A DNA stretch of 34,683 bases from positions 123,171 through 157,853 of the forward strand of contig JACPRW010000001.1 in assembly GCA_016193585.1 (NCBI GenBank). The letters are read 5' to 3'. The notes beneath the pieces were generated by a model. That model did not search any database and was not told the DNA's origin. It saw only the letters and a list, made by a program, of their open reading frames with translations. Of the stretch, positions 4,150-26,435 are shown piece by piece. This DNA is from Candidatus Aenigmatarchaeota archaeon. Its GTDB lineage: Archaea; Aenigmatarchaeota; Aenigmatarchaeia; GW2011-AR5. Each line of letters begins with the position of its first letter. Position 1 is the stretch's first letter. Both the position numbers and the translations under genes were made by a program.

Positions 4150-4836
4150 TCACCGCCTTCGTGCCGTGCGCTTTTTTCTCCGCAGGTCAAACGTCGGCGA
4201 AAGCAGCGTGCAGTCGGGAGAAAACACTGGTATGGGGAATGTGATGGGGCTGCCGTTTAGTAAATAATCATTGCATGACAACCACTCGTATATCCGTTCT
4301 TGTACGACTATGCCTGCCCATAGGTCGGGGGTTACCGCTGCTTCAAGGGGGTTTCGTGGCATCAGCCGCACTTCATCGTCGTACCGGGGCCAGACGCCTT
4401 CTCTAATAGGAATCCCAAAGACTGACGTCCAGCCTTCGTCAAAGTTGTAGGCCCATCGGAGGGCATCCTCTCCCCAAATAGCTTTCTGGTACTGCTGAAA
4501 ATGCTCGCCTACTGCAAAAACTTCACCGGGGTATGCATCCATGAGCTTGCTGGCATCTACGATGATAGCGATGTCCGGAATTGCGCCACGGCCATCGTTA
4601 TATTTCGATGCATGATGTTTGGCCCTTGAGTATCGGTACGGCAACTCGTTGTTGGAGAGCAGCGCAAATGAGATGAAATCGAGGCTGAGGCTATAGGTTT
4701 TTTCCCCATGCGCTTCAAGCACCGCAGGCGGGACCAGCCCCCACTCCAGCAGTGTCCTGTAATTTTTACGCGTAAAGCTAGTGCCATGCACGAGATTTCC
4801 CGGCTTCAAGATAACTTCAGGGTCATACGGCGGCAT
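4150..4836 (-). CDS. Unknown protein coupled to aIF5B, weakly ART-like
   Basis: A 228-residue protein I cannot assign. The ATG at 4836 shares its A with the TGA of the aIF5B gene (TGATG), so I prefer it to the start four codons earlier; translation is probably coupled. The N-terminal part has NLVHGTS followed by a helix and EWGLVPP. An HGT triplet plus an L-x-x-GL-x-P turn is seen in several ADP-ribosyltransferase-like folds, and a Glu near the end (QERIYEW) could fill the third position. That assignment is speculative. The middle is rich in Tyr, Trp and acidic residues; the tail is basic (RRKKRTARRR). There is no membrane segment. Confidence 0.6.
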   Translation of the reverse strand: MPPYDPEVILKPGNLVHGTSFTRKNYRTLLEWGLVPPAVLEAHGEKTYSLSLDFISFALLSNNELPYRYSRAKHHASKYNDGRGAIPDIAIIVDASKLMDAYPGEVFAVGEHFQQYQKAIWGEDALRWAYNFDEGWTSVFGIPIREGVWPRYDDEVRLMPRNPLEAAVTPDLWAGIVVQERIYEWLSCNDYLLNGSPITFPIPVFSPDCTLLSPTFDLRRKKRTARRR

Positions 4837-6590
4837 CAGAACCCCCACGTCCTGTCCTGCTTGCGCTTCAGTTCCTTGATTTCCTCGAGCACGGCTTTCT
4901 CATTGTCCGAGAGCAGCTTCACCTGCTTGAGCAGGTCTTTGTAATGGCTGCCGTTCATGTCCGTATAGAGCACGTCGTTCTCGTCAATCTGCCTGCCGAC
5001 GGTCGGCCCGGTAATCGAGACAGCTACCTTGTCGCCTGTTTTCGCCTGAGGCATGTTCTCCCCCTGCGCCTGTATCTGCTTGATTTCACCGACCTGCTTG
5101 TCGTCCTTAAAAAGCCCGTAGCCGGGCTTGACGATGCCACCGAGCACCTCGCAGCCGACGATTGCCGGATTGCTCGCGCGGAACACATGACCGGGCAGTA
5201 TGCGCAGCTTGCCTGGCCTGATGAGCTTCTCGAGCTCGTCTTTTTCGATGGTGACTTTCGCTTCGGCAACCCACTGCTCGTACGCTTCAATGAGATGGTA
5301 GATGACGTTCGACTCGAGCAGTTTGACGTTCTTGTCCATGGCAAAGACTGCCATGTCATCGGGAGTGCGCATGTTGAAGCCGATGACGGCCCGGTGGAAC
5401 CGGTCCTTGTTCGCTTCTGCTTTGATGACGTCCGTCTTCGTTATCTGCCCGATGGTCGCTTCCTTGACCGGATGGTTCCGGAAGATGGAGAGCATCGCTT
5501 CGAGGCTGCCGATGGTGTCGGCCTTGAGGATGAGCCCTTCAGTTTCCGTATGCACTTCGATTTCTTCCCGTTCCTTGTCAAATTCTTCGAGCAAGGCTTT
5601 TGCCTCGTCCAGCGTCGCCGCGGTCCGTATTTCGGACCCGGCGATGACGTCGTCGAGCGCCGGCGCGGAGATTTTTACGCCGCTCGCCGCGACGCATTCC
5701 TCTACCTGCTGGAACTTCTTCTCGACGCGGATGTCGCGGAGCGGCTCGGGCTCGAGGAGCGCGCGTATCTTGACGATGCGGGGGTTCTTCCCGCCGATGA
5801 TGAGGTAATCGTTCTTCTTCACCGAGCCGTCGTAGATGATGGTGTCGATGGTCATGCCGAGACCGGTGACCTCTTTGACTTCGAGTATCGTTCCCTTTGC
5901 ATGGTCCGTCGTGGTGAGCTGCTGCCTGAGGAACTGCTGTGAGAGGCCGGCAAGTATCGCCAGCAGCTCGGGAATCCCTTCCCCTGTCTTCGAGGAAATC
6001 GGGATGGCGGCGACGTTCGCGCGGAAATCCTGCATCCGGTCGTAACGTTCAGCAGCGAAGCCGTGGCCTGCTGCCTGCTCGACAACACGATAGAATTTCT
6101 CCTCGAACTCCCCCTGCACGTCGCTTGACTGGCGGGAGAAGTTCTCGCTGAAGGATGCCATTTCAGGGGAGTCCCATCCCCTGATGCGGTCGATTTTGTT
6201 GACGGCGATGACAAACGGCACCTTCGCCTCCTTGAGGATGGCGATGCTCTCGTCTGTCTGCGGCATGAAGCCTTCGACGATGTCGACGACCAAGATGGCG
6301 AGGTCGGCGATGCTGCCGCCGCGCTTGCGGAGCGTCGAGAACGCCTCGTGGCCCGGCGTGTCGATGAACAAAAGGCCGGGAATGGTGATAACAAAGCGGA
6401 ATTTCTCGAGAATGCGACCTGAGATGTTTTTGATGACGTCAGTGGGTATCTGCGTTGCGCCGATAGCCTGCGTGATGCCGCCTGCCTCCTTCTGCGCTAT
6501 GATAGTCTGCCGTATTTTATCGAGCAGCGACGTTTTCCCGTGGTCGACGTGACCGAGCACCGTGATTATCGGCTGGCGCAGGCGTGGCAT
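4836..6590 (-). CDS. infB: Translation initiation factor aIF5B (IF-2 family)
   Basis: A GTPase that promotes ribosomal subunit joining during initiation. The 584-residue protein shows G1 GHVDHGKT (13-20), G3 DTPGH (77-81), G4 NKID (131-134) and G5 SSKTGEG, followed by the beta-barrel and C-terminal domains of archaeal/eukaryal IF5B. The length matches the archaeal family; no intein is present. I start at the ATG at 6590, giving MPRLRQPIITVLGHVDHGKT. A TATA box (GCTTTATAAGC, about 6637-6647) lies upstream. ndk follows the same strand upstream, and ndk-infB adjacency is a conserved archaeal arrangement, often with rpl24e, which is absent here. Confidence 0.97.
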   Translation of the reverse strand: MPRLRQPIITVLGHVDHGKTSLLDKIRQTIIAQKEAGGITQAIGATQIPTDVIKNISGRILEKFRFVITIPGLLFIDTPGHEAFSTLRKRGGSIADLAILVVDIVEGFMPQTDESIAILKEAKVPFVIAVNKIDRIRGWDSPEMASFSENFSRQSSDVQGEFEEKFYRVVEQAAGHGFAAERYDRMQDFRANVAAIPISSKTGEGIPELLAILAGLSQQFLRQQLTTTDHAKGTILEVKEVTGLGMTIDTIIYDGSVKKNDYLIIGGKNPRIVKIRALLEPEPLRDIRVEKKFQQVEECVAASGVKISAPALDDVIAGSEIRTAATLDEAKALLEEFDKEREEIEVHTETEGLILKADTIGSLEAMLSIFRNHPVKEATIGQITKTDVIKAEANKDRFHRAVIGFNMRTPDDMAVFAMDKNVKLLESNVIYHLIEAYEQWVAEAKVTIEKDELEKLIRPGKLRILPGHVFRASNPAIVGCEVLGGIVKPGYGLFKDDKQVGEIKQIQAQGENMPQAKTGDKVAVSITGPTVGRQIDENDVLYTDMNGSHYKDLLKQVKLLSDNEKAVLEEIKELKRKQDRTWGF

Positions 6591-14026: not shown

Positions 14027-14302
14027 TCAGGAAACATCCCGGTGCGTCGCGTACATGAACGCCGCGTCCTTGTTCCTCTTTTTCAGCAGCTTCGCCACAA
14101 GCCTGAAGATGTCGTCTGATTGCACAACAGGCTTTTTGTCCATCCAGCGCCTGACGTCTCTCGCGACGTCTTTCGCTGCTTTTTCGCATTCCAGCTTCTT
14201 CATGTGGCAGCTGAGGCACGCGGCGTAGCACGAGGCGTACACCTTCCGTTCGTCGAACTTCTCTATCTTCCCCTTCCGCTTGACGATATGGATAGGAATC
14301 AC
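14027..14302 (-). CDS. Stand-alone ATP-cone domain protein
   Basis: A 91-residue protein consisting almost entirely of one ATP-cone, the nucleotide-sensing domain of ribonucleotide reductases and NrdR: VKRKGKIEKFDERKVYASCYAAC at the N-terminus and a C-terminal DDIFRLVAKLLKKRNKDAAFMYATHRDV. NrdR has a zinc ribbon before the cone; this one does not. Extra cysteines are present (SCYAACLSCHMKKLEC), so a redox or metal response is possible. The GTG start overlaps the CcdA stop as GTGA, implying coupled translation with a thiol electron carrier. That context is unusual for an ATP-cone. Confidence 0.8.
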   Translation of the reverse strand: MIPIHIVKRKGKIEKFDERKVYASCYAACLSCHMKKLECEKAAKDVARDVRRWMDKKPVVQSDDIFRLVAKLLKKRNKDAAFMYATHRDVS

Positions 14303-15009
14303 CCGAAATTAATTGTTCCGTTTGCTATAAGTATCAACAGCCATGAGAGCGCTATAAGCAAAATCCCTATCGCAAGCCTCATATAGCCGCGGAATTTGTG
14401 CTTCCACTGCTTGATGTGGTGTATCTTGGTTCCCATGAGCACCGCGGCGAGGATGGCGGCGAGTGGCAGCACGAAGATGATGTTGTAGAGCACGAGCAGT
14501 AACATGGCGCCGGCGTTGAAATTCTGCGACAGTACGAGGATGACGGCAAGGTACGGGCCTCCGGTGCACGGCAGCTCAACGCCGGCGACGAAAACACCGA
14601 GCAGGAAGACGCCGGGCAGCGTTATCCGCTCGAGCCGTGCATGTATTTTCTTCGCCATGTCAGGCGAAATAGCGAGCGAGATGCCCCTGCCGTACCAGAA
14701 GAAATCCTTTATCTCTATGAGCCCTGCTATGGTCAGCAGTGACGCCACGAAAATAGAGATGTACTCGGCAACGATAAGGGGTATCGTCTGGAAGAAAAAC
14801 ATGAGCCCGACGCCCGCGAGGAGATAGGCAAGAAATACGGCGAAGACGTAGACGCCTCCGACCGCAAGCATGCGCTCGCGCTTTGCCGAGGAAGCAACCA
14901 GCGTCGCGACGAGCAGTATCATGACGCCGATGGCGCAGGGGTTGATCGAGTCGACGAGTGCGCTGATGATGACCGTTCCGATTGCCGGCAACGAGGCTTC
15001 AACTGCCAT
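14299..15009 (-). CDS. ccdA: CcdA/DsbD-type membrane thiol electron carrier
   Basis: A 236-residue, six-helix membrane protein of the CcdA family, which passes reducing equivalents from cytoplasmic thioredoxin to thiols outside the membrane. The two redox cysteines sit in the expected helices: C25 in DSINPCAIGVM and C148 in GVELPCTGGPY. I use ATG 15009, with AGGTGA just upstream; it overlaps the end of the preceding gene by 11 bases. The gene pair upstream (His-rich membrane protein) and downstream (ATP-cone) overlap it on both sides, so the three form one operon. Likely partners are the DsbA-like and rhodanese proteins at 17.9-19.2 kb. Confidence 0.9.
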   Translation of the reverse strand: MAVEASLPAIGTVIISALVDSINPCAIGVMILLVATLVASSAKRERMLAVGGVYVFAVFLAYLLAGVGLMFFFQTIPLIVAEYISIFVASLLTIAGLIEIKDFFWYGRGISLAISPDMAKKIHARLERITLPGVFLLGVFVAGVELPCTGGPYLAVILVLSQNFNAGAMLLLVLYNIIFVLPLAAILAAVLMGTKIHHIKQWKHKFRGYMRLAIGILLIALSWLLILIANGTINFG

Positions 15010-15814
15010 AGAGTTCACCTTTCTGCACTGCTATCGCATAGCTTGCGCACAAATGCTCCGTGAGTTCCTTCGCTTCGCCGAATTCCACGATGATGCAGTC
15101 GCCCTGCGGCACCTGGCCGAACGGCGATATAACGTACGCATCAGCGTTTGCCAGTTTCTCCTGCGCGTACATCCACGGTTTTGATGCCGGGTTCGCCACG
15201 CGGTACACGAAAACCTGCACGGTCCCGGCGGTGCCGTCAGGGCACCGGTCACCGTTCTTCCACGCTTTCCATGTTCCATCATGCATGAGCACTGACAGTT
15301 CACTTCCGGTCAATGCGCCTCCGAGTGCCCCAAAGAACGCGCCAAGGCTCGCGTCGCTCTTCCGCACGAGCACGCCCTCGATGTGGATGCGGTCGTCATT
15401 GTGGTGGTGGAGCACTTCGCTGCCGACCTTGTTCGCCAGCCCTTCCGATTCCTCAAGCACCAGCTTCTCGCCGCACGCCCACACCTCGTAATCGGCGTGC
15501 CAGTGCACCGGGCCGCCTGTTTCCGCGATGGTGTTGAGTTGCACCGTCGACATGATCAGGTAGCCGGTCACCGCCAGCGATGTAACTACCATGACAGCAA
15601 ACGCTGCTTTCTTTTCGAATTTGGTAAACTTCTTGCCGAAGTAGACGACGAACATGCCGAGGATGACGAGCGCAGCGGTGCCGTACAAGGCGACGTCAAG
15701 CTGGGGATACATGTGGAAAAACGATTCAGTTTCTGTTTCATGGACCGCCTCGCCGTGAGCGAAAGCGTATGACGCAAGCGAAAGGAGAAAAAGCACAGTG
15801 GCAGCAACCTTCAT
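14999..15814 (-). CDS. His-rich membrane protein with extracytoplasmic domain
   Basis: A 271-residue protein. A signal peptide (MKVAATVLFLLSLASYAFA) is followed by a His/Glu-rich stretch (HGEAVHETETESFFHMY), two membrane helices (about 41-60 and 70-90), and an outside domain of about 180 residues beginning VHWHADYEVWACGEK and containing LHHHNDDRIHIEG. The HxH and HHH sites plus two cysteines look suited to metal binding, and a GALGGALTG segment follows. A later part (VQVFVYRV, DAYVISPFGQVPQGDCIIVEF) is beta-rich. I start at ATG 15814, which gives a clean signal peptide. It is translationally coupled to CcdA. The family is not known to me; a metal or thiol role is inferred. Confidence 0.75.
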   Translation of the reverse strand: MKVAATVLFLLSLASYAFAHGEAVHETETESFFHMYPQLDVALYGTAALVILGMFVVYFGKKFTKFEKKAAFAVMVVTSLAVTGYLIMSTVQLNTIAETGGPVHWHADYEVWACGEKLVLEESEGLANKVGSEVLHHHNDDRIHIEGVLVRKSDASLGAFFGALGGALTGSELSVLMHDGTWKAWKNGDRCPDGTAGTVQVFVYRVANPASKPWMYAQEKLANADAYVISPFGQVPQGDCIIVEFGEAKELTEHLCASYAIAVQKGELYGS

Positions 15815-15846
15815 AGATACAATGTTGGAGAGGGCGATATATATAG

Positions 15847-16539
15847 CTACACTACCGCGCCGAGCGCGGCGCCGATGGCGTAGCCGATGATAGCCGCCGA
15901 GATGCCGACAAATGCCATCTCCAGGCCGTTCTTTTTCCAGTCGCCGACCGTGAGCTTGGCAGTCACTGCCCCGCCAGCGAAGAGCGCGACGGATGACATG
16001 ACTACAGAAAGCACGATGCCCGCCTGTATCGGCATAAAAAGAAACGGCGCAAGCGGTATGAGCGAGCCGATAAGCGACGCCGTGCCGACCACGGCAGCGC
16101 TTTTTTTCGGGTTCTCGTAATCCTCGGGGAACAGCCGCAGCTCCTCCGCCATCATGGTGTCGAGCCACAGCTTCTTGTTGGACGTTATTTTCCTCACAAT
16201 CTGGTTCAGCAATTTCCCGCGGAACCCTTTTTTGTAATAGATGTCCCGTATCTCCCTCTTTTCGAGGTGCGGCACCTCCTCGATTTCCCTTTTTTCCTGC
16301 TCCACCCTGCTCTGGTAGAAGTCATTTGCCGCTTTCGATGACGTGTAGGCGACCGCGGCCATCGATATCGACTCGGCGAACGTTGCGGCAAGCCCGGCGA
16401 TGACGACGATGCGGATGTCGTTCGTTGCCGTTGCCACCGCAAGGATGACGCCGAGCACGTTGACGAGGCCGTCCTGCCCGCCGAGGATGATGTCGCGTAT
16501 GATGGACCTGCTGTACGAGTGATTTTCAGCTTCGGGCAT
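15847..16539 (-). CDS. VIT1/CCC1-family Fe2+/Mn2+ transporter
   Basis: A 230-residue membrane protein of the VIT/CCC1 family, which moves ferrous iron or manganese out of the cytosol. The signature RDIILGGQDGLVNVLGVILAVA forms TM1, and TM2 follows with ESISMAAVAYTSS. The Glu-rich cytoplasmic helical insert (EQEKREIEEVPHLEKREIRDIY...MMAEELRLFPED) that binds metal is present, and the rest contains three further helices ending AIIGYAIGAALGAVV. The ATG at 16539 is preferred to an upstream TTG: a TTTAAAG box lies about 25 bases before it, suggesting a leaderless message. Confidence 0.9.
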   Translation of the reverse strand: MPEAENHSYSRSIIRDIILGGQDGLVNVLGVILAVATATNDIRIVVIAGLAATFAESISMAAVAYTSSKAANDFYQSRVEQEKREIEEVPHLEKREIRDIYYKKGFRGKLLNQIVRKITSNKKLWLDTMMAEELRLFPEDYENPKKSAAVVGTASLIGSLIPLAPFLFMPIQAGIVLSVVMSSVALFAGGAVTAKLTVGDWKKNGLEMAFVGISAAIIGYAIGAALGAVV

Positions 16540-16586
16540 CTGATTATTTGGTTGCAATCACTTTAAAATACAGCAAGAAGCGCATC

Positions 16587-17910: not shown

Positions 17911-18513
17911 TCAGCAGCCGAATTCGCCGATAGTGCACATGCCAAGCTGGCCGGTGACATTGGGTGTTCCGGGGTCCGGGCCGCTCGCAACGTACTGCTC
18001 AGCATTCGTTGTGTTCCATTCATGCGCATGGTTCCACAGCGTCCACTGGTAGCGCCATTCGTTCCAGCCGATGCCGAGGTGCTTGACGTAGATGCCGTTC
18101 TCGGCGAGCATCTTGCCGATTTTCCTGCCGGTCATGCACGGCATGCTGTAGCAGTAGACGATGATGTCCCTGTCCTGCGGCAGCTGCCGGAATGCGGCGA
18201 GAATGCGCTCCTGCTCCTCGTACGCAGGCGTATTCCTGTCTTTATAGGCGGGAATGTTCACGGCGCCAACGATATGCTCCTCCGCATATTCTTCAGCACT
18301 GCGCAGGTCAACGAGCGTGTAGCCGGCAACGCCCTTGTCCATCTTCCCACGAAGCGAATGCGGGCTCACGTGAACGGCATTCTCGGTGAGATAGAAGCCT
18401 GCTATCAGCTTATCCTCGCTGTGGCTGTCTGCGGTGATGAGCGCATATGAGGCGAGCGAGCCTGCGAGCGCGCCGACGGCGGCTGCAATAACCACGAGGT
18501 ACGCAGGTTTCAT
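17911..18513 (-). CDS. Membrane-anchored rhodanese-like protein
   Basis: A 200-residue protein with an N-terminal hydrophobic segment (4-26) that should hold the rest outside. The rhodanese domain (about 60-165) shows VDLRSAEEYAEEHIVGAVNIP, and the active loop VYCYSMPCMTGRKIG with C121 as the expected sulfur carrier and a second cysteine, C126, five residues on. The loop is longer than the usual CxSGxR. A C-terminal extension ends GMCTIGEFGC, two more cysteines. The start overlaps the DsbA-like stop as ATGA. The two-cysteine loop and position after a DsbA fold suggest disulfide or persulfide exchange outside the cell. This is inferred. Confidence 0.85.
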   Translation of the reverse strand: MKPAYLVVIAAAVGALAGSLASYALITADSHSEDKLIAGFYLTENAVHVSPHSLRGKMDKGVAGYTLVDLRSAEEYAEEHIVGAVNIPAYKDRNTPAYEEQERILAAFRQLPQDRDIIVYCYSMPCMTGRKIGKMLAENGIYVKHLGIGWNEWRYQWTLWNHAHEWNTTNAEQYVASGPDPGTPNVTGQLGMCTIGEFGC

Positions 18514-19244
18514 GTTTTCGCGAGCTCCGTGTCGATAATGTTCCGCATCGAAGAGAACGATTGCGCCCCTTCGACCTTGACATTGTTGACGTACAACGTT
18601 GGCGTCGCCTTCACGCCCCGCTTGAGCGCTTCGTCGGCATCAGCCTTCACGCGAGATGCCATCACTCCAGAATCAAGGCACTGGTTAAACGCATCGGTGT
18701 CGAGTCCGAGGCTTGCAGCGTATCCCTTCAATGCTGCCAGATATAACGCCTGCTGGTTTTCGAACAGCTTGTTATGGTATTCCCAGAACTTGCCCTGGTC
18801 GGCAGCGCACTCGGCAGCTTCTGCAGCCTTCTGCGCGTACGCGTGGGTTGACGTGAGCGGGAAATGCTTGTAGACAAATTTCACCTTCCCTGTCTCAACA
18901 TAGGCGGCAATGAACTGAGGTTCTGTCTGCCTGAAAAAAGCGCCGCACGCCGGGCACTGGAAGTCGCTGTACTCTGTCACGGTCACCGCCGCCTCGGTGC
19001 CAAGGAAATTGTCCGCGTCCGCTGTTTTCGGTTCATAACGAGCTCCCGGGGACATGAGGAAATACAGAACTACAACAAGCACGCCGACACCAAGAACAAC
19101 CGCCACGTGCACCGGCTTTGGGGAGAATGTCTTTTTGGCTGCAGCCGCTGGCTGCGCATGCTTGGCATTGCGGTGCTGCTCGAGCGCTTCCCGGGAGTCA
19201 AACTGCCTGCTGCAATCGTGGCACACAGGTTTTTCCATGAGCAT
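18510..19244 (-). CDS. Zinc finger - TM - DsbA-like thioredoxin fusion
   Basis: A 244-residue protein with three parts. Residues 8-29 are a single C2H2 finger (CHDCSRQF...LEQHRNAKH; C8, C11, H24, H29), residues about 46-64 a membrane helix, and 80-244 a DsbA/DSBA-like thioredoxin fold with the CPAC redox pair (C97, C100) in DFQCPACGAFF and the cis-proline in KATPTLYVNN. The finger would face the cytoplasm and the redox domain the outside. Relatives catalyse disulfide formation or isomerisation. The start is coupled to the upstream small TM gene by TGATG, and the stop overlaps the rhodanese start. CcdA at 14299 could supply electrons. Confidence 0.9.
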   Translation of the reverse strand: MLMEKPVCHDCSRQFDSREALEQHRNAKHAQPAAAAKKTFSPKPVHVAVVLGVGVLVVVLYFLMSPGARYEPKTADADNFLGTEAAVTVTEYSDFQCPACGAFFRQTEPQFIAAYVETGKVKFVYKHFPLTSTHAYAQKAAEAAECAADQGKFWEYHNKLFENQQALYLAALKGYAASLGLDTDAFNQCLDSGVMASRVKADADEALKRGVKATPTLYVNNVKVEGAQSFSSMRNIIDTELAKT

Positions 19245-19531
19245 CAGCTGATTCCATTCTTGGCAAGGAAATCGCTGAGCTGCTCGCCTGTTGCGTCATA
19301 AAAGAGCTGGGGGTCAACCTGCCTCAGGCAGTCGGCATACTGCCCGGGATGGTGGCTCAGGTGCTGTATGTTCGCGTGGTCCTGCATATCTCCGCAGTCG
19401 TTCGTTCCATAATTCGGCAGACTTTTGTATTGTTCCCGGCTTCCTTGCTGGGAGATGAATAGCGCCACGAAGACGAGGACTGCGATGCCGACAGCAACGG
19501 CAGCATACATGAGCATGTCTTCTTTCGCCAT
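19244..19531 (-). CDS. Small anchored protein with two outside cysteines
   Basis: A 95-residue protein with a single membrane helix (about 8-26) and a short outside domain. The domain has two cysteines (TNDCGDMQDHAN and YADCLRQVDPQLF) and histidine-rich HLSHH between them, then ends SDFLAKNGIS. The stop and next start overlap as TGATG. AGGTGAT precedes its own ATG; the 58-base gap to the upstream gene is the only loose junction in the operon. It probably works with the DsbA-like and rhodanese partners, perhaps as a substrate or metal-binding helper. The family is not recognised. Confidence 0.7.
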   Translation of the reverse strand: MAKEDMLMYAAVAVGIAVLVFVALFISQQGSREQYKSLPNYGTNDCGDMQDHANIQHLSHHPGQYADCLRQVDPQLFYDATGEQLSDFLAKNGIS

Positions 19532-19588
19532 CGTATCACCTACTTCTCAAAGCAGCACTCCAGTATCTCCTTGAGCGTCCTGGAAAGC

Positions 19589-19990
19589 TTATTTTTCCAT
19601 TCTTTTCTTTTTCTGAGGTTTTTTAAGATCATTTTTCTTGTCCTCCTGCTGCATCAGCCAGAACAGCCCGTACGTGCTGAGCGCGCTGTCGAGCATGTCC
19701 TGCGCCTTGCGTGCGTCAGTGGTGATGTATTTTGTCGCAACCTCCATCTGCCGCATCGTCGCGGCGAGGAGGTGCTTGCTGATGCACCACAGCTCGCCTT
19801 CGTTGTTGATTATGAGCATCTTGAGGAGGTTGATGCGCAGTTTCCTGACGGCGTCGAGAACCGGCATGTATTCCTTCTTGCCTGTTTTCATGATGGTGAA
19901 CGAGAGGTGTTCCTCGGTGCTGATGAGGTTCATCACCGCGATGGCGAGGTCCTCCCTGCACGTCAGGTCTGCCTTATGCTGGTCGTTCAT
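19589..19990 (-). CDS. Helical cytoplasmic protein of the thiol operon
   Basis: A 133-residue, mostly alpha-helical, soluble protein. It begins MNDQHKADLTCREDLA; it contains ISTEEHLSFTI, a long amphipathic helix with RKLRINLLKMLI, a GELWCISKHLLAATMRQMEVATKYI segment, and a very basic tail (KKNDLKKPQKKKRMEK). The pattern suggests a four-helix bundle. ATG 19990 overlaps the upstream stop as ATGA, so this start is preferred. I do not know its function. Being inside an operon of membrane thiol proteins, it may be their cytoplasmic partner. Confidence 0.7.
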   Translation of the reverse strand: MNDQHKADLTCREDLAIAVMNLISTEEHLSFTIMKTGKKEYMPVLDAVRKLRINLLKMLIINNEGELWCISKHLLAATMRQMEVATKYITTDARKAQDMLDSALSTYGLFWLMQQEDKKNDLKKPQKKKRMEK

Positions 19991-20505
19991 GCAATCCACC
20001 CCAGTGCGTACATCCCGACGCTCGCTACGACGAGCGCTGCAAGCGGGAGAATGATGCCCTGCATCGGAATGAAGTTACTGTTGCCGTTACCGGCGCGGAG
20101 CTGCTGGTGCGCCACAAATGCGAGCGATGCCACCGCGGTGCCAGCGATGGTCCCGAAGAACAGCTTGTCCATGCCGAATATAAGGTACTTCGAATCAAGC
20201 ATGCCGGCAAGATACACGGTGACAAGTGTCAGGGCCAGCGAAACCAGGACGAAGATATGCTGTTGGTATGCAATCATCATTTTTTTCCCGTTTCTTTTGA
20301 ACGCCACATTGTGCATCCACAGCGCCGTCGAGACGGCAAAGCCTCCGATGAACAGTCCGACAACTGCGTCGTCGATACCGTAGATGCGCGTTGTTGCAAC
20401 AGCCATGCCGGTCGCCGCGCTGCATAAAGGGCAGTGCGCCATCGCCGCTGGAAGAAAAGTAAAAAAGGAAAAAAGTACTGCAGCAATTCTGTATTTCATT
20501 GCCAT
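19987..20505 (-). CDS. CPLC-motif multi-span membrane protein
   Basis: A 172-residue membrane protein with a cleavable-looking signal (MAMKYRIAAVLFSFFTFLPAAMA), directly followed by HCPLCSAATGM, a CxxC pair (C25, C28) that would sit at the outer face, and four or five further helices. The CPLC pair at the new N-terminus could be a redox or metal site. The ATG at 20505 shares its A with the upstream TGA. It has no other cysteines, so the CxxC is presumably central to its job. I read it as a partner of the CC/CGHH protein upstream and the DsbA-like protein downstream. The family name is unknown to me. Confidence 0.75.
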   Translation of the reverse strand: MAMKYRIAAVLFSFFTFLPAAMAHCPLCSAATGMAVATTRIYGIDDAVVGLFIGGFAVSTALWMHNVAFKRNGKKMMIAYQQHIFVLVSLALTLVTVYLAGMLDSKYLIFGMDKLFFGTIAGTAVASLAFVAHQQLRAGNGNSNFIPMQGIILPLAALVVASVGMYALGWIA

Positions 20506-21047
20506 CATCCGCATGCGCCCGCGCCGCTGTCAAGACCGTCCGGATAGAAAATATTCTTCCAGACATCGAGCTCCTGCTGAATCTGCTCCCTGCTGTAGTT
20601 CTTTGTCGCAAGCAGCTTCGCCAGACCCACCATCGCGACGTGGTGGCCGCACTCGCAGTTACCTGCAGCCTCTATTTTCTGGAAGCCGCAGCACGGGAGC
20701 TCTATATCAAGGCCTACTATTTTCTGCTGCTGCCCGGCGTCGAGCCTGATGGAATTCATCGTCAGGAGCTTCTCGTAGCCTGCGTTGTCAAGCGTGATGC
20801 CGTATGCGGTCATCTCACCGGTCGCGAAACGCGATGGAGCTGCGCCCGATTCCATGCCGCAGCTGCCGGAACTTGATCCGCCGTGATGCGCCTGCATCAT
20901 CTCTTCGTACGAAGAGAACCCCTGATACTGCCCTTGCTGCGCAGCATAGCCGGTTGTTTTCGCTGTTCCGTACAGCTGGTATCCCATGAACGCTACCACG
21001 CCCAGGAGCGCGCTGATGATGGCAACAGCGATGAGTTTCTGGTCCAT
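20505..21047 (-). CDS. Anchored protein with CC and CxCGHH motifs
   Basis: A 180-residue protein opening the thiol operon. A single N-terminal helix (5-25) is followed by a Gly/Ser/His-rich linker (QAHHGGSSSGSCGMESG) and a compact domain with LPCCGFQK (C119, C120) and NCECGHHVAMVGLAKLL (C131, C133, H135, H136), then a helix ending WKNIFYPDG. The cluster of four cysteines and two histidines strongly suggests metal binding; it resembles in style the bacterial PCYCGC proteins, though I cannot claim homology. ATG 21047 has AGGTGA five bases upstream and a TATA-like CACTTATATGG further back, so the operon promoter is here. Confidence 0.8.
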   Translation of the reverse strand: MDQKLIAVAIISALLGVVAFMGYQLYGTAKTTGYAAQQGQYQGFSSYEEMMQAHHGGSSSGSCGMESGAAPSRFATGEMTAYGITLDNAGYEKLLTMNSIRLDAGQQQKIVGLDIELPCCGFQKIEAAGNCECGHHVAMVGLAKLLATKNYSREQIQQELDVWKNIFYPDGLDSGAGACG

Positions 21048-21400: not shown

Positions 21401-21775
21401 ATGATAGCCGCTTCTGCATGCCCGGTAACCGATTCAGCAAAAATTATGGGCAGAAAATGGTCTATAATGCTCTTCGAGGAGATAGCCCTGGACCGTTTCG
21501 AGGGCTTTAACCAGCTTCTCAGAAAAACAAAGAGCGTCACGCCCAAAATCGTGTCCCTTCACCTGAAGGAGCTTGAAACAGCCGGGCTGATTACAAAGAA
21601 AATGATTTTGAGGAACAACTGCAGGGTAACGAATTATACGGTGACGGCAAAAGGCCGCGAGTTCCACGAAATCATCAGGCACATGAAGAAGTGGAACATG
21701 AAATGGAAAACCGCCCCGTCATACTGCCTCAGCACCCCCTGCAGCGAGTGCCCGCTGTTCTGCAAGAGACGGTGA
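21401..21775 (+). CDS. HxlR-family winged-helix regulator with cysteine-rich tail
   Basis: A 124-residue MarR/HxlR-type DNA-binding protein. The HxlR pattern is clear: ACPVTDSAKIMGRKWSIMLF at the N-terminus, FNQLLRKTKSVTPKIVSLHLKELETAGLI for the recognition helix, then the wing (NNCRVTNYTVTAKGREF). It ends with YCLSTPCSECPLFCKRR, four cysteines in 14 residues, beyond the usual fold. Together with Cys7 these could sense redox state or metal. It is divergent from the thiol operon side and convergent with the copper operon, so it is a good candidate regulator of either. Confidence 0.88.
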   Translation: MIAASACPVTDSAKIMGRKWSIMLFEEIALDRFEGFNQLLRKTKSVTPKIVSLHLKELETAGLITKKMILRNNCRVTNYTVTAKGREFHEIIRHMKKWNMKWKTAPSYCLSTPCSECPLFCKRR

Positions 21776-21776
21776 A

Positions 21777-22268
21777 TCAGCGTTTGGCAGTCACGATGTT
21801 CGTCATGCCGCGCCGCTTGCGCTCAACGAGCCCCTTTGCCTCAAGCTTGTCGAGGATGCGCGTGACGCGCACCTTCGTGAAGCCCGTCTTCTCGACCAGC
21901 TCGCTCTGGAATACAGCACCCGCGCTTCGCACCGTTTCGTATAGTTTCTGCTCGTCCTTACCGAGCTCTTTCACCAGCTTCTCGGTCTTTTCCTTGGTTT
22001 CCAGTTCCGCAGCAACCTCTTTTCTGCTCATGAAAACAAGCAGGATGCCGAACAGGAACAGCAGCCCGGTGATGGCAAAGCCGACCAGCGCCTGATGCGG
22101 GGTGCCTACGAACGGGCAGATGGCATCGGGCAGCGTACAGTTCTGGTGAAGCACCGCGTTCAGGCTCTCGACTTTCCTCGTGAAGTCGAGCACGATAAGC
22201 GCGAACGCCGCAGCAAAGAGTATAACGATGAGCCCTATCTGCCTGTTGCCGAAATTTATGCGCGTCAT
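21777..22268 (-). CDS. Membrane-anchored winged-helix regulator
   Basis: A 163-residue protein with two membrane helices (about 10-29 and 60-80), a short outside loop between them carrying two cysteines (HQNCTLPDAICPFVG), and a cytoplasmic MarR-like winged helix (about 100-163; FQSELVEKTGFTKVRVTRILDKLEAKGLVERKRRGM). This makes a one-component sensor: an outside Cys pair linked to an inside DNA-binding domain. GAGAGGATGAT precedes ATG 22268, twelve bases after the upstream gene, so it is the last gene of the copper-ATPase operon. Sensing of an oxidant or soft metal is inferred from the loop. Confidence 0.85.
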   Translation of the reverse strand: MTRINFGNRQIGLIVILFAAAFALIVLDFTRKVESLNAVLHQNCTLPDAICPFVGTPHQALVGFAITGLLFLFGILLVFMSRKEVAAELETKEKTEKLVKELGKDEQKLYETVRSAGAVFQSELVEKTGFTKVRVTRILDKLEAKGLVERKRRGMTNIVTAKR

Positions 22269-22280
22269 GGAATCATCCTC

Positions 22281-22826
22281 TCATTTGATGAGCAAAAAAG
22301 CGACGATCAGTACCGGCACAGCAGCCACCAGCGCGAAGTTCCTGATTTCCGTGATATTGTGCCTGAACAGGCTCCTGAAGGGCGTCTTTGCATTGTACAG
22401 TCTCTTTTCCTGAATGAGCGAGAGCATAAAAAGAGTTCCTATGACGCTGGAAACAATGCCAAGCACGATGAAAAATGCCTGGTACTTGCCGAGGAACAAG
22501 GTTACAGCAGTCAGCCCCATGAGCGGAAGCACGTCGGTGACATGGTGCGCGCAGCACGCAACCATGGAAACGGTCGAAACGCCGCCTGCTGCAGCGACGC
22601 TTTTTGCAGACACAGCTGTCATGTTATGAATGTACGAAAAGAGCGCCATCTGGAAGCCGAAACCGATTATCAGGGGCGTCATGAAATACCACAGGCTGGC
22701 GAACTGCGAAAACGCATGCGAAGTCCCCTGGGCTACGCTCACAATGAGGAAGTAAACCATGAAGAGCGCGGCGCTTGCGAGAGCGCCGTGCAGCACAAAC
22801 GTCATTGCCCTATTGTTGCGCTTCAT
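22281..22826 (-). CDS. Multi-span membrane protein with a CCAHH motif
   Basis: A 181-residue protein with about five membrane helices. The notable feature is VACCAHHVTDVLPLMG in the middle, two adjacent cysteines and two histidines within or at the edge of a helix, a likely metal site. A second cluster, MALFSYIHNM, lies before it. The tail ends in another helix (NFALVAAVPVLIVAFLLIK). It follows the DUF2933-like and 31-residue genes and precedes the membrane-anchored regulator, all on one strand. Its place behind a CopA-type ATPase suggests a copper or mercury transport helper. The family name is uncertain. Confidence 0.8.
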   Translation of the reverse strand: MKRNNRAMTFVLHGALASAALFMVYFLIVSVAQGTSHAFSQFASLWYFMTPLIIGFGFQMALFSYIHNMTAVSAKSVAAAGGVSTVSMVACCAHHVTDVLPLMGLTAVTLFLGKYQAFFIVLGIVSSVIGTLFMLSLIQEKRLYNAKTPFRSLFRHNITEIRNFALVAAVPVLIVAFLLIK

Positions 22827-22937: not shown

Positions 22938-23101
22938 TTTTCATCCTTGTGCAGTTTCATCATCAGGATATGCATGACAGGGCATGACAGCAGTGCAAGC
23001 CAATAGATTGCCTCATTTCTAATGCCAAGTATATACACAATGGCGAGTAAAGCTGCAGGAACCGCCATGCAGGCGAGCATGAGGAGGGTGTGTTTTTTCA
23101 T
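22928..23101 (-). CDS. DUF2933-like small membrane protein
   Basis: A 57-residue protein with two helices: [20 protein letters not shown] and [20 protein letters not shown], ending DEKCH. The CPxMHxxM pattern with a His/Cys tail is typical of DUF2933 proteins, which occur beside copper ATPases and bind metal by inference. The start overlaps the CopA stop as ATGA. Assignment is from pattern memory; a profile search would settle it. Confidence 0.7.
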
Positions 23102-25218
23102 GGCAATCGGTCCTTATGGAGACCATGCGAAGGTTTATACCTGTTGAGCAGCATCGAGTTGCCTACCACCGTTACTGAAGAGAGTGCCATGGCGATAGCG
23201 GCGAAAACCGGGTTCATGAGCACGCCGATGGGGTAGAGGACGCCGGCAGCAACAGGTATGAGCGCGATATTGTAAAAGAACGCCCAGAAAAGATTTTGTT
23301 TTATTTTGCTCACCGTCTTTTTACTGAGGTCTATGGCAGTGATTACGTCGCGGAGGTCGCTCTTCATGAGGATGATGCCTCCTGTTTCCTTTGCCACATC
23401 GGTTCCGGCGCCGATGGCGATGCCTACGTCCGCGGCCGCAAGAGCCGGCGCGTCGTTGATGCCGTCGCCGACCATCGCGACAATCTTTCCCACCTTCTGA
23501 AGTTTCTTGATTTCCTTTGCCTTAGCACCAGGCAGTACTTCTGCAAGCACGCGGCTGATGCCGAGCTTCGCTGCTATTGCTTGCGCTGTTCTTGGGTTGT
23601 CACCGGTGAGCATGATAACCTCGATGCCCTTTTGCTTAAGTGCCCGGACAGCGGCTGCCGATTCTTCCTTGAGCGTGTCTGCCACGGCTATCATGCCGAG
23701 CAGCTTCCTGTTCACTGCAAGCAGCATGACCGTTTTTCCTTCATGCTCAAGCTTTTGTATGCCATCTTCTTGCTCGATGCGGATTTTGTTTTTCTGCATG
23801 AGCTTCCGGTTGCCCAGCAGAATCCTTTTTCCCTTATAGGAAGCCTCGACGCCATGACCGGGAATGGCGCGGAATCGTGTCGCATGTGGAATCTTCATGC
23901 CCTTTCCCCGTGCTGCACGGACAATTGCATCGCCAAGCGGATGCTCTGAGCCTTTTTCAGCAATTGCAGCGTACAGCAGAACGTCTTTCTCCTTTCCCTG
24001 CAGCGCGATAATGTCGGTAACCGATGGCTCGCCTTTGGTGAGCGTCCCGGTCTTGTCGAAGATGATGGTGTTTATTTTTCTTGCCTTTTCGAGGTGCTCG
24101 CCGCTCTTGATGAGTATACCGTATTCGGCACCCTTCCCGGCGCCAATCATGATGGCGGCAGGCGTCGCGATGCCGAGAGCGCAGGGGCAGGCAATGATGA
24201 GCACCGCGATGAGCATGGTGAACGCGAACGAAAACGGTATGCCTATGAGGTAATACCAGAACACGAACGAGCCGACGGCGATGAGCACGACGGCAGGAAC
24301 AAAATATGATGCGACGACGTCGGCAAGCCGCTGCATCGGCGTCCGGGAAACGACAGCTTCCTGTACCATCTTGACGATCTGCGACAGCGTCGTGTCGCTG
24401 CCCACTCTGGTCGCCCTGATGCGCAGGAGCCCTGTTTTGTTGATGGTCGCACCGGCAACCTCGTCACCCTTCTTTTTCTCGGCAGGGATGCTTTCGCCGG
24501 TCAGCATCGACTGGTCGACTGACGAGTAGCCGTCAGTGACAATGCCATCGACCGGAATCTTCTCGCCGGGCCTGACGATGAGCACATCGCCAACACGCAC
24601 CTGTTCAACAGGGACCTTCGTTTCCTTCCCCTTGCGCACGACTGCAGCCATTTTCGGCTGCAGGTCCATGAGCCTCCGTATGGCAGCTGATGCCTTTCCT
24701 TTGACAATGTGCTCCATATACCGACCGAGCAGGATGAAGCCGATGATAAGACCGGATTCAGTGTAGTAGACTGCAGTGCCCACGGTCACCACAGGAAGGA
24801 AGCGTGGCCAGAGGATGTCCTGGAAGGTGTACAGCGTCGAGTAGAGCCACGCGGCGCTCGTGCCTATTGCTATCAGGAGGTCCATGTTTGCCTGCCTCGC
24901 CCTGATGGCGTCGCGGGAACCGACGTAGAACCGCCAGCCGGCGATGAATTGCACGGGCGTAGCAAGCAAAAAGAGAAGTACGTAATTCTGAAGACCGAAT
25001 GGAGTTGCAGGATAGATGTATTCGAAGAACGCAGTGAGCGCTCCCAGTCCGAGCGCAAAGAGCGTCAGGAATTTCAGCTTCTGCATCTCCTGCTGCGGCC
25101 TGAGGAACTCCCTCAGGCAGTTCGAGCTGCAGAAATAGTAGGTGATGCCGTCCTGCGCCACGTGAAACTTCGATTTCGTTTCGTCCACGTACATGCCACA
25201 AATGATGTCCTTTGCCAT
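23098..25218 (-). CDS. copA: Cu+-type P1B ATPase with N-terminal YHS/TRASH domain
   Basis: A 706-residue heavy-metal ATPase. In place of a CxxC HMA domain it starts with a YHS-type metal-binding domain ([21 protein letters not shown]7, C30, C34). Then come eight membrane helices, the actuator motif LTGESIP, the metal-site CPC (344-346) in [13 protein letters not shown], the phosphorylated D388 in [17 protein letters not shown], and [12 protein letters not shown]. The CPC motif, [14 protein letters not shown]-type last helix and [13 protein letters not shown] fit Cu+ export. ATG 25218 lies five bases after the YHS gene stop. It is the centre of an operon of small metal-binding genes, probably controlled by the PadR-TRASH regulator at 26034. 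Confidence 0.95.
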
Positions 25219-25223
25219 AACAA

Positions 25224-25364
25224 TCACTTGAGCGCGAATTTCGCCGGCTTTTTATCAAACCGGGATTTGCAGGCATCACTGCAAAAGTAGTAGGTCTTTC
25301 GCTTGAATACCAAATGCATTCCCTTTTTCTCTATCTGCATCCCGCCGACCGGATCCTTAACCAC
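25224..25364 (-). CDS. Stand-alone YHS-domain protein, first Cys replaced
   Basis: A 46-residue protein from a GTG start: [14 protein letters not shown], then [20 protein letters not shown]. This is a YHS/TRASH metal-binding domain like the one at the start of CopA, but the usual DPVCGM reads DPVGGM, so one ligand is missing (GGC instead of TGC). The later CxxxC pair is intact. It ends five bases before the CopA ATG. It may hand metal to the ATPase, or it may be losing function. The GTG start is the first possible one after a run without ATG, so the N-terminus is uncertain. Confidence 0.7.
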
Positions 25365-25720: not shown

Positions 25721-25972
25721 TCATTTCCTTGCTGTGCGATTATACGCCCGCGCGAACAGGTAGCCCAGCGCATAGGCTCCGGCGACGGTACCGGCGAGTC
25801 CGAGCAGCATGAGCGCCCAGTTGCTCCAGAAGCCGCGGTAGAGAAGAGTCATTACCGACGGCTGCTGGAATATCCCGTGCCATACATAGGCAAAGATGTC
25901 GAGCACTGCTGTCGCCGTTGCTGAAGCGAAGGCGAATGCCTTCTCATTGAGCTGTGTGATAGCGTTCACCAT
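25721..25972 (-). CDS. Small two-helix membrane protein, DUF5676-like
   Basis: An 83-residue protein with a polar start (MVNAITQLNEKAFAFASATA), one helix around 15-35, an outside segment with WHGIFQQPSV and LLYRGFWSNW, and a second helix (LMLLGLAGTVAGAYALGYLF) ending AYNRTARK. The closing G-x-x-x-G-Y/A-x-x-F-A-x-x-YN pattern is what I recall from DUF5676, small proteins seen near copper genes; that link is tentative. It faces the PadR-TRASH gene across a shared operator, so it should be under that regulator and is probably the first gene of the copper operon. Confidence 0.75.
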   Translation of the reverse strand: MVNAITQLNEKAFAFASATATAVLDIFAYVWHGIFQQPSVMTLLYRGFWSNWALMLLGLAGTVAGAYALGYLFARAYNRTARK

Positions 25973-25991
25973 ATATCAGTTTATGATATAT
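25971..25991. promoter_or_regulatory. Palindromic operator between PadR and the copper-side genes
   Basis: ATATATC (25971-25977) and GATATAT (25985-25991) form an inverted repeat with a seven-base spacer. It begins at the start codon of the 83-residue membrane protein and lies just upstream of the PadR TATA box, so one bound dimer could block both genes. PadR proteins bind such A/T-rich dyads. The assignment is inferred from position. Confidence 0.6.
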
Positions 25992-26000
25992 CGCAACAAA

Positions 26001-26012
26001 GTATATTTAAAG
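26001..26012. promoter_or_regulatory. TATA box of the PadR-TRASH gene
   Basis: GTATATTTAAAG is centred 28 bases before ATG 26034, so the message starts at or next to the codon. On the reverse strand the same AT-rich segment (CTTTAAATATAC) can serve the 83-residue gene about 30 bases away. Confidence 0.6.
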
Positions 26013-26033
26013 ATTGCTTTTCATGAGTATCGA

Positions 26034-26435
26034 ATGAAGGGCATGCGCGTGGACAATCTCGTGAAGCTGTATACGCTCCTCCTGCTGCAGGGCAGGCCGA
26101 AGCACGGCTATGAGCTGCTGAAGACAACTGGCGAGCGCCTGGGCAGGAACGTGTCTCCGGGGCAGATGTACCCTTTCCTCAAGCGGCTCCAGAAGCTTGG
26201 TTATGTCAGGGTACAGGAATCCGGCAGCAGGGAGAAGAAGGCGTATGCGCTCACCGCGAAGGGGAAAAAATTCTCGCAGCTGATGATAGGACGGTTCAGC
26301 GGCATTATGGACTTGGCGCTCAAGAGCAGGCTCAGGACATGCGCCCATTGCGGCTGCGAGGTGTACCGCGGCGGCTACCGGAAGAGCAGCAGGAATTTCT
26401 GCTGCCGAAACTGCGCGCAGGCATATTCAGGATGA
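26034..26435 (+). CDS. PadR-family repressor with C-terminal TRASH metal-binding domain
   Basis: A 133-residue regulator. Residues about 4-95 are a PadR winged helix (LVKLYTLLLLQGRPKHGYEL; SPGQMYPFLKRLQKLGYVRV; AYALTAKGKKF). Residues 103-131 are a TRASH/YHS-like treble-clef site: CAHCGCEVYRGGY, then NFCCRNCAQAY (C103, C106, C108, C123, C124, C127). Known archaeal copper regulators join other HTH domains to TRASH; here the DNA-binding part is PadR. The start is fixed by the TATA box 28 bases upstream. It is divergent from the copper-side genes and shares a palindromic operator, so metal-dependent autoregulation is the natural reading. Confidence 0.9.
   Translation: MKGMRVDNLVKLYTLLLLQGRPKHGYELLKTTGERLGRNVSPGQMYPFLKRLQKLGYVRVQESGSREKKAYALTAKGKKFSQLMIGRFSGIMDLALKSRLRTCAHCGCEVYRGGYRKSSRNFCCRNCAQAYSG

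Follow-up and report, generated by a model that had tools for sequence, protein, structure and literature searches.

A copper-associated gene island in an Aenigmatarchaeota archaeon, with an undescribed two-gene core and a putative split-off microprotein

We analysed a stretch of 34,683 nucleotides, hereafter the window, from a Candidatus Aenigmatarchaeota archaeon (GCA_016193585.1, contig JACPRW010000001.1, positions 123,171 to 157,853; the genome comprises 1.17 Mb in 10 contigs), concentrating on six open reading frames (ORFs), A to F, at positions 17911 to 21047. We read this segment as the distal half of an extracytoplasmic copper island of DPANN archaea (Diapherotrites, Parvarchaeota, Aenigmarchaeota, Nanoarchaeota and Nanohaloarchaeota) joined to a DsbA-rhodanese pair, and suggest that within it B and C may be a thiol relay that substitutes for CcdA and has been retooled for Cu(I), a reading to which, taken whole, we give about an even chance. 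Comparison of sequences supports well that A, B, C, D and a MarR-like gene recur with the gene for the ATPase CopA, that B and C constitute a core, that C stands beside either B or CcdA, and that the tail of C has been split off in some genomes. The mechanism of B and C, unlike their gene context, is something that we infer.

The initial annotation had placed six genes on one strand, with overlaps at four of their five junctions. All six ORFs are confirmed on the minus strand, from A (20505-21047) to F (17911-18513), and direct reading confirms the overlaps: GGATGATGG at A/B, where the start of B is ambiguous between 20505 and 20499, ATGA at B/C, TGATG at D/E and ATGA at E/F. The fifth junction, C/D, is a gap of 57 nt, the sole open gap of the operon, and is occupied by a micro-ORF absent from that annotation, here called muC.

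20505..21047, minus strand: gene A (P0001, 180 aa), N-terminal membrane anchor, exported CC-x10-CxCGHH domain and C-terminal tail ending GAGACG.
19987..20499, minus strand: gene B (P0002, 170 aa), signal peptide ending AMA/HCPLC, then four to five helices.
19589..19990, minus strand: gene C (P0003, 133 aa), predicted cytosolic four-helix protein with EEH and EGxWCxSKH motifs, lacking the C-terminal CCxE tail of its family.
19540..19632, minus strand: muC (hidden micro-ORF, 30 aa), MILKNLRKRKEWKNKLSRTLKEILECCFEK, with an ATG start, GGAGG upstream, in the +1 frame.
19244..19531, minus strand: gene D (P0004, 95 aa), anchored, with a metal-ligand-like motif, C-x(n)-H-L-S-H-H-P-x2-Y-x2-C.
18510..19244, minus strand: gene E (P0005, 244 aa), C2H2-like zinc finger, membrane anchor and exported DsbA domain (CPAC).
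17911..18513, minus strand: gene F (P0006, 200 aa), anchored rhodanese with a YCYSxPCMTGRK loop and a conserved C-terminal Cys tail.

Topology was judged from hydropathy and, for B and C, from a single predicted model of each. On this basis A, D, E and F each possess a single N-terminal membrane anchor, B a signal peptide followed by four or five helices, and C no membrane segment, which bears out its earlier description as a helical soluble protein and places it in the cytosol. The Cys and His residues of the motifs are not there by chance, because homologs of A, B, C and F keep them without, or almost without, exception. The motifs listed in the initial annotation are real. C, being cytosolic, has no exported Cys pair, and the zinc finger of E is likewise cytosolic. 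Its view that only the DsbA and rhodanese folds are recognisable, the other four families being undescribed, holds: E (Thioredoxin_4/DSBA) and F (Rhodanese) alone among the six have Pfam matches, A, B, C and D lack a convincing match in Pfam or NCBIfam, no consistent Pfam match exists among 18 A, 56 B and 73 C homologs, and a search of open papers found no description of these families. A DsbA-like family enriched in bacteria of the Candidate Phyla Radiation (CPR), with an adjacent VKOR gene, has been reported (Meheust 2019, PMC6744442), and is according to the main text of that paper a different module.

For the comparison of neighbourhoods, A and B were searched in 115 genomes (the window's own and its relatives), and genes up to 20 kb around the matches were mapped by homology; the genomes are mostly fragmented metagenome assemblies, and the counts are drawn from related genomes, with p-values that are nominal. 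A recurrent DPANN unit consists of the CopA ATPase, a membrane-bound MarR, A, B and C, to which D, DsbA, a thioredoxin-domain protein, PadR, TM181 or a PCYCGC protein is often added; around the window's six ORFs this conserved unit continues upstream to CopA and PadR, as far as about 26.4 kb. Within 8 kb of B, in the 16 loci where B carries HCPLC (several of which stop at contig ends), A and MarR are found throughout, C and CopA in 12 loci each, D in 8, DsbA in 6, PadR and TM181 in 5 each, and rhodanese in the window only. CopA is present in 21/23 genomes with A as opposed to 25/92 others, and in 15/16 genomes with the HCPLC form of B as opposed to 31/99 others; all 16 of the latter genomes also possess A, and 13 of them have matches to the cupredoxin profile PF13473 (28/99 among the others). 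Some CPR loci also carry a CsoR-type repressor and an HMA-DsbD_2 protein. The ATPase of the window is of the CopA (P1B-1) type, with 621 bits against TIGR01511 (cut-off 397) and CPC, YN and MxxSS motifs. Extracytoplasmic handling of thiols or a soft metal, as initially proposed, is therefore supported, and because a CopA-type ATPase lies in the conserved island and A co-occurs with CopA in the proportions given above, the metal handled is most likely Cu(I).

A scan with C returned at least 550 encoding places, and the best 80 of these belong nearly all to CPR bacteria and DPANN archaea, at 47-59% identity. C occurs in 20 of the 115 relatives. Even draws of genomes gave C in 51 of 380 from one CPR phylum and in 4 of 299 from Pseudomonadota, and C was not found in the viral contigs searched. 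The module is also present outside CPR and DPANN, on contigs labelled Betaproteobacteria with a GC content of 62-64% (L124, L133 and L141), where C has CcdA, TM181 and DUF1573-like neighbours. In most loci B lies directly upstream of C, and over 119 C loci the neighbours are B only in 94, CcdA only in 12, both in 3 and neither in 10 (p = 2e-8, nominal; CcdA counted with a wider profile). In the first pass of this count, 7 of the 12 CcdA-C loci held a different anchored thioredoxin, c15. Sequence comparison thus gives good support to B-C as an apparently undescribed two-gene core common to CPR bacteria and DPANN archaea. The CcdA carrier at 14.3-15.0 kb of the window had been proposed to feed the system; a link to CcdA does exist, as the alternative neighbour of C, but the feeder role is not upheld.

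Residues C23, P24, C26, G41, G116 and G120 of B are invariant in 56 sequences, and in its AlphaFold2 model (pLDDT, the predicted local distance difference test, 89) C23-P-L-C26 lies at the outer face of the membrane; no PDB fold matches the model and no PDB sequence match is convincing. B is not recognisably a CcdA or DsbD protein: none of 56 B proteins matches DsbD_TM or SfLAP, and its only cysteines are C23 and C26. A role as a DsbB/VKOR-like thiol oxidase, in which CPLC would pass electrons from DsbA or a CPHC thioredoxin to quinone with C as a regulator, might be considered, given that the CVLC of DsbB, like the CPxC in the model of B, opens a helix on the outer side of the membrane, and that the window operon includes a DsbA. 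However, B has no second loop Cys pair and no DsbB/VKOR fold or profile match, it alternates with CcdA, which is a reducing carrier, and DsbB is not known to require a conserved cytosolic partner with a CC tail, and we regard an oxidase as improbable.

In the copper island a His precedes the CPLC of B. Copper markers lie near 25/25 B genes with this His before CPxC, compared with 8 of 77 without it, and an anchored CPHC thioredoxin adjoins 40 of the 77 non-His B genes and none of the 25 His-type genes. By Fisher test the association of His with copper is strong, but it represents approximately one evolutionary event, because His-type B forms one group on the B tree (support 94 in the Shimodaira-Hasegawa-like approximate likelihood ratio test, SH-aLRT), in which DPANN and CPR sequences stand together with one non-His member inside. 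One locus of Woesebacteria (L147) carries both forms of B, in separate contexts. The restriction of the His to copper islands would also fit a reading of B-C as a copper path, with C and muC as a cytosolic Cu(I) chaperone and B as a Cu(I) channel or docking protein bearing an N-terminal His-Cys-Pro-Leu-Cys site, and so would the invariant E, H, C and M residues of C and the Met-rich ORFs, resembling copper-binding proteins, between C and muC in L081 and L085. However, copper markers are missing from the surroundings of 69 of the 77 non-His B genes, roughly half of the 77 stand next to a thioredoxin, and C pairs also with CcdA, a thiol carrier; we consider a dedicated copper path unlikely, while granting it an appreciable probability.

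Gene C has 22 invariant positions in 73 CPR and DPANN sequences, including EEH, the E-W-C-K-H of EGxWCxSKH, and M79, R80 and E83; its predicted model (pLDDT 89) finds no PDB fold, and its sequence no convincing PDB match. A match to the Pfam family bAvd, seen in 1 of the 73 C proteins, was discarded. The protein typically ends in a helix-like stretch followed by CCxE, which is present in 80/80 C proteins next to non-His B and 11/12 next to CcdA. In the window this tail appears, by its sequence pattern of a helix and then CCxE, to be carried by muC, which shares 44 nt with the end of C and stops 8 nt short of D. When all frames after tail-less C genes were translated and scanned for CCxE ends, a separate CCxE ORF with its own start codon was found in 11/11 split members (window, L053, L056-L061, L064, L081, L085). 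These ORFs have 24-31 codons and an ATG start (in L058 TTG or an upstream GTG), and GGAGG or AGGAG lies a few nt 5' of the start in five of them (window, L053, L059, L060, L064). Between the two closest genomes there are two differences in muC, both synonymous. A Diapherotrites locus of the same clade (L145) has a similar CC ORF with another ending, and in two split members, L081 (~4202-4450) and L085 (~5500-5830), the space between C and muC is occupied by ORFs for Met-rich exported proteins that may bind copper.

On the C tree the split form is one change in one clade (11 split, 109 fused; SH-aLRT 91), and it is best explained by a single gene fission after which the tail was retained as a putative trans-acting microprotein. 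It might be objected that muC is not a separate gene, the CCxE tail being joined to C by programmed +1 frameshifting, or that the split is an assembly frameshift. The six members in which the CCxE ORF overlaps the end of C (window, L053, L059, L060, L061, L064) do share the same +1 frame, and there is an A-rich stretch at the overlap in the window. Nevertheless, in the remaining five the ORF lies 17 to 731 nt downstream of C in various frames, so that frameshifting would cover the overlapping members only, GGAGG-like sites precede several starts, and the split has one origin in one clade and is found in eleven different assemblies. Both forms of the objection appear decidedly improbable, and we retain gene fission as the explanation.

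In the mechanism that we propose, the four-helix cytosolic protein C would give thiol electrons or Cu(I) to B by way of its vicinal Cys tail, which in the window would act in trans as muC. Transfer from C and the CC tail to B would take place at the cytosolic side, with B showing its CPxC at the outer face, and B would in this way serve a thiol protein outside the cytoplasm as CcdA does. The outer partner of B in the ordinary module would be the anchored CPHC thioredoxin. In the copper island its place would be taken by A and D, both with Cys and His, and in relatives by PCYCGC proteins. Cu(I) exported there by CopA would bind to A, to D and to the HCPLC at the mature N-terminus of B, and the thiol state of these ligands would be governed by DsbA and CcdA. 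F may be a loosely attached, sulfur-transferase-like partner of DsbA, outside the core. More broadly, and more tentatively, at somewhat less than an even chance, we suggest that an unrecognised transmembrane thiol/Cu(I) carrier, B, is common to CPR bacteria and DPANN archaea, where, with a cytosolic donor of its own, C, it replaces CcdA and occurs in a thioredoxin and a copper form, the detached tail acting in trans as a microprotein (~24-31 residues) in one archaeal clade.

Several observations weigh against these proposals. The switch between B and CcdA amounts to two changes only on the C tree, the two co-occur in three C loci, and His-type B is essentially one clade, with two changes and one supported independent contrast; the counts in general are not phylogenetically independent, hence the nominal p-values. 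B has one Cys pair where CcdA has two membrane Cys, and a CcdA-like mechanism is not obvious for it. In addition, the predicted models of B and C match no PDB fold, and the window genome contains no convincing cuproprotein client (PF13473 reaches 22.5 bits, below cut-off; PF00127 and TIGR02376 give none), and the island might serve either copper detoxification or the supply of copper to such a client. Nitrite reductase, hinted at as a client by a NirK-like ORF in L097, was rejected: TIGR02376 is absent from the window genome and over cut-off in 1 of 115 relatives.

The initial annotation inferred one machine from the six genes, a relay of thiols, persulfide or a metal with the rhodanese at its core and fed by CcdA. 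Overlapping gene order in the window genome speaks for such a relay, as does the proximity of C to an F homolog in L097, a Woesearchaeota locus in which that homolog is followed by the NirK-like cupredoxin ORF (4706-5256, by eye). However, DsbA is near only 6 of the 16 HCPLC-type B loci and rhodanese near 1, F shows no association with B (B in 3/9 F genomes and 19/106 others, p = 0.37), and nothing was found in support of a persulfide relay across all six; a single six-protein machine is thus very improbable. The four undescribed genes are not scattered, A to D being clustered, but their neighbours are CopA and MarR instead of DsbA and rhodanese. F belongs to a subfamily of 9 members (55-65% identity to F), with invariant Cys in the loop and C-terminal tail; its Rhodanese match is over cut-off (1.2e-14), and the loop Cys C121 and C126, of predicted catalytic function, are invariant in all 9. 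In seven other genomes F homologs lie away from A-B-C, adjoining a zinc-finger DsbA in L173 and L179 and a CxHC thioredoxin in L174, L176 and L177, and HxlR and permease genes resembling those of the window are found near F homologs in L176 and L178. Because F homologs pair elsewhere with DsbA or thioredoxin away from A-B-C, E-F is, judged from sequence and gene neighbourhood, a module of its own that has been joined to the copper island in the window. E itself matches Thioredoxin_4 at 3.2e-35 (over cut-off) and DSBA at 5e-17, with CPAC at residues 97-100; its zf-C2H2 match (0.0019) is below gathering. A cytosolic C2H2-like finger with an anchor is common to E and an unrelated exported His-containing family (L053:15061-15789; L054:2577-3254), which suggests a reusable N-terminal module.

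Residues C119, C120, C131, C133, H135, W163, K164, P169 and C179 of A are invariant in 18 homologs, and A has no credible PDB match and no match in Pfam or NCBIfam. Kinship with the PCYCGC family (PF13798) was rejected, with 0/18 A proteins matching the profile and an hhalign probability of 0.8%; a PF13798-type gene does lie near B and C in L056, L060, L061 and L064. Counting the window, 11 loci among the relatives contain the D motif, as do L086 and L145. The C-terminal pentapeptide MVGGC ends many A-family and adjacent short anchored proteins (L056-L064, L066, L070, L075, L076, L097), as a common C-terminal Cys tag on otherwise different exported proteins; in the window, A ends in GAGACG and F in GEFGC.

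The neighbouring features of the window are listed below.

14299..15018, minus strand: CcdA/SfLAP-type membrane protein, membrane Cys 28 and 151; SfLAP 3e-9, DsbD_TM 2e-5 (below gathering).
21401..21775, plus strand: HxlR-type regulator, transcribed divergently from A; related genes lie close to rhodanese F in L176 and L178.
21777..22268, minus strand: MarR-like regulator, membrane-anchored, two Cys between membrane segments; MarR_2 5e-9; conserved island member.
22281..22826, minus strand: TM181, membrane protein with a CCAHH motif, no Pfam match; variable island member.
23098..25227, minus strand: CopA-type Cu(I) P1B ATPase with an N-terminal YHS domain; CPC 347, YN 652, MALSS 680.
25896..26435, plus strand: PadR regulator with a C-terminal CxxC...CxxxC TRASH-like cluster; PadR 3e-14; likely metal sensor.

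The Cys cluster of PadR, CAHCGC...FCCRNC, was found by pattern against C-x(19-22)-C-x3-C, and a match to a TRASH profile was not obtained. In L054 (14875-15594) TM181 is fused to a D-like CHHC domain, which would link TM181 and D functionally. The region between CcdA and a permease (14999-16557 of the window) encodes an exported, His-rich protein and a VIT/CCC1-like (by eye) multi-pass membrane protein, and possibly represents more metal handling.

How episymbionts with minimal genomes move reducing power and copper across their membranes is poorly known. B-C, patchy in CPR and DPANN and alternating with CcdA, offers a concrete candidate carrier with a CPxC pair and a CC tail. muC would be a clear example of gene fission: a conserved tail that looks catalytic would have turned into a gene of its own, of about 30 codons, a size that would escape ordinary annotation. 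In addition, A, B, C, D and muC, families without a Pfam entry, gain a context.

Parallels with several known systems may be drawn. MerA has a C-terminal vicinal Cys tail and resembles C in bearing a flexible C-terminal CC motif on a cytosolic metal or thiol protein, whereas C is a predicted four-helix protein with no flavin domain and a tail ending CCxE. In E. coli the small copper chaperone CopA(Z) is produced from copA by programmed frameshifting; CopA(Z) and muC are alike as small Cys-pair proteins that come out of a larger gene through a change of frame, but muC, which lacks an HMA fold, appears to be an independent ORF that begins at its own start codon and was detached from a helical protein of the cytosol. 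With the CopA-CopZ/CsoR export islands the DPANN island shares a CopA-type ATPase, metal-sensor-like regulators (the Cys-cluster PadR, and CsoR in CPR) and small Cys/His proteins; it differs in that A to D belong to no known copper family and that a membrane-bound MarR is among its regulators. PCYCGC proteins (PF13798) are, like A, anchored, exported and rich in Cys and His, although A is not detectably homologous to them. Finally, the CcdA/DsbD carriers (PF02683, PF11139, PF13386) with their thioredoxin partners resemble B in combining a membrane protein with an extracytoplasmic thioredoxin-fold protein. B is unrelated to CcdA in sequence, carries a single CPxC on the outer side where CcdA has two membrane Cys, matches no PDB fold, and would be served by a dedicated cytosolic partner, C/muC, where CcdA uses an ordinary thioredoxin; in different genomes, however, CcdA and B fill the same position beside C.

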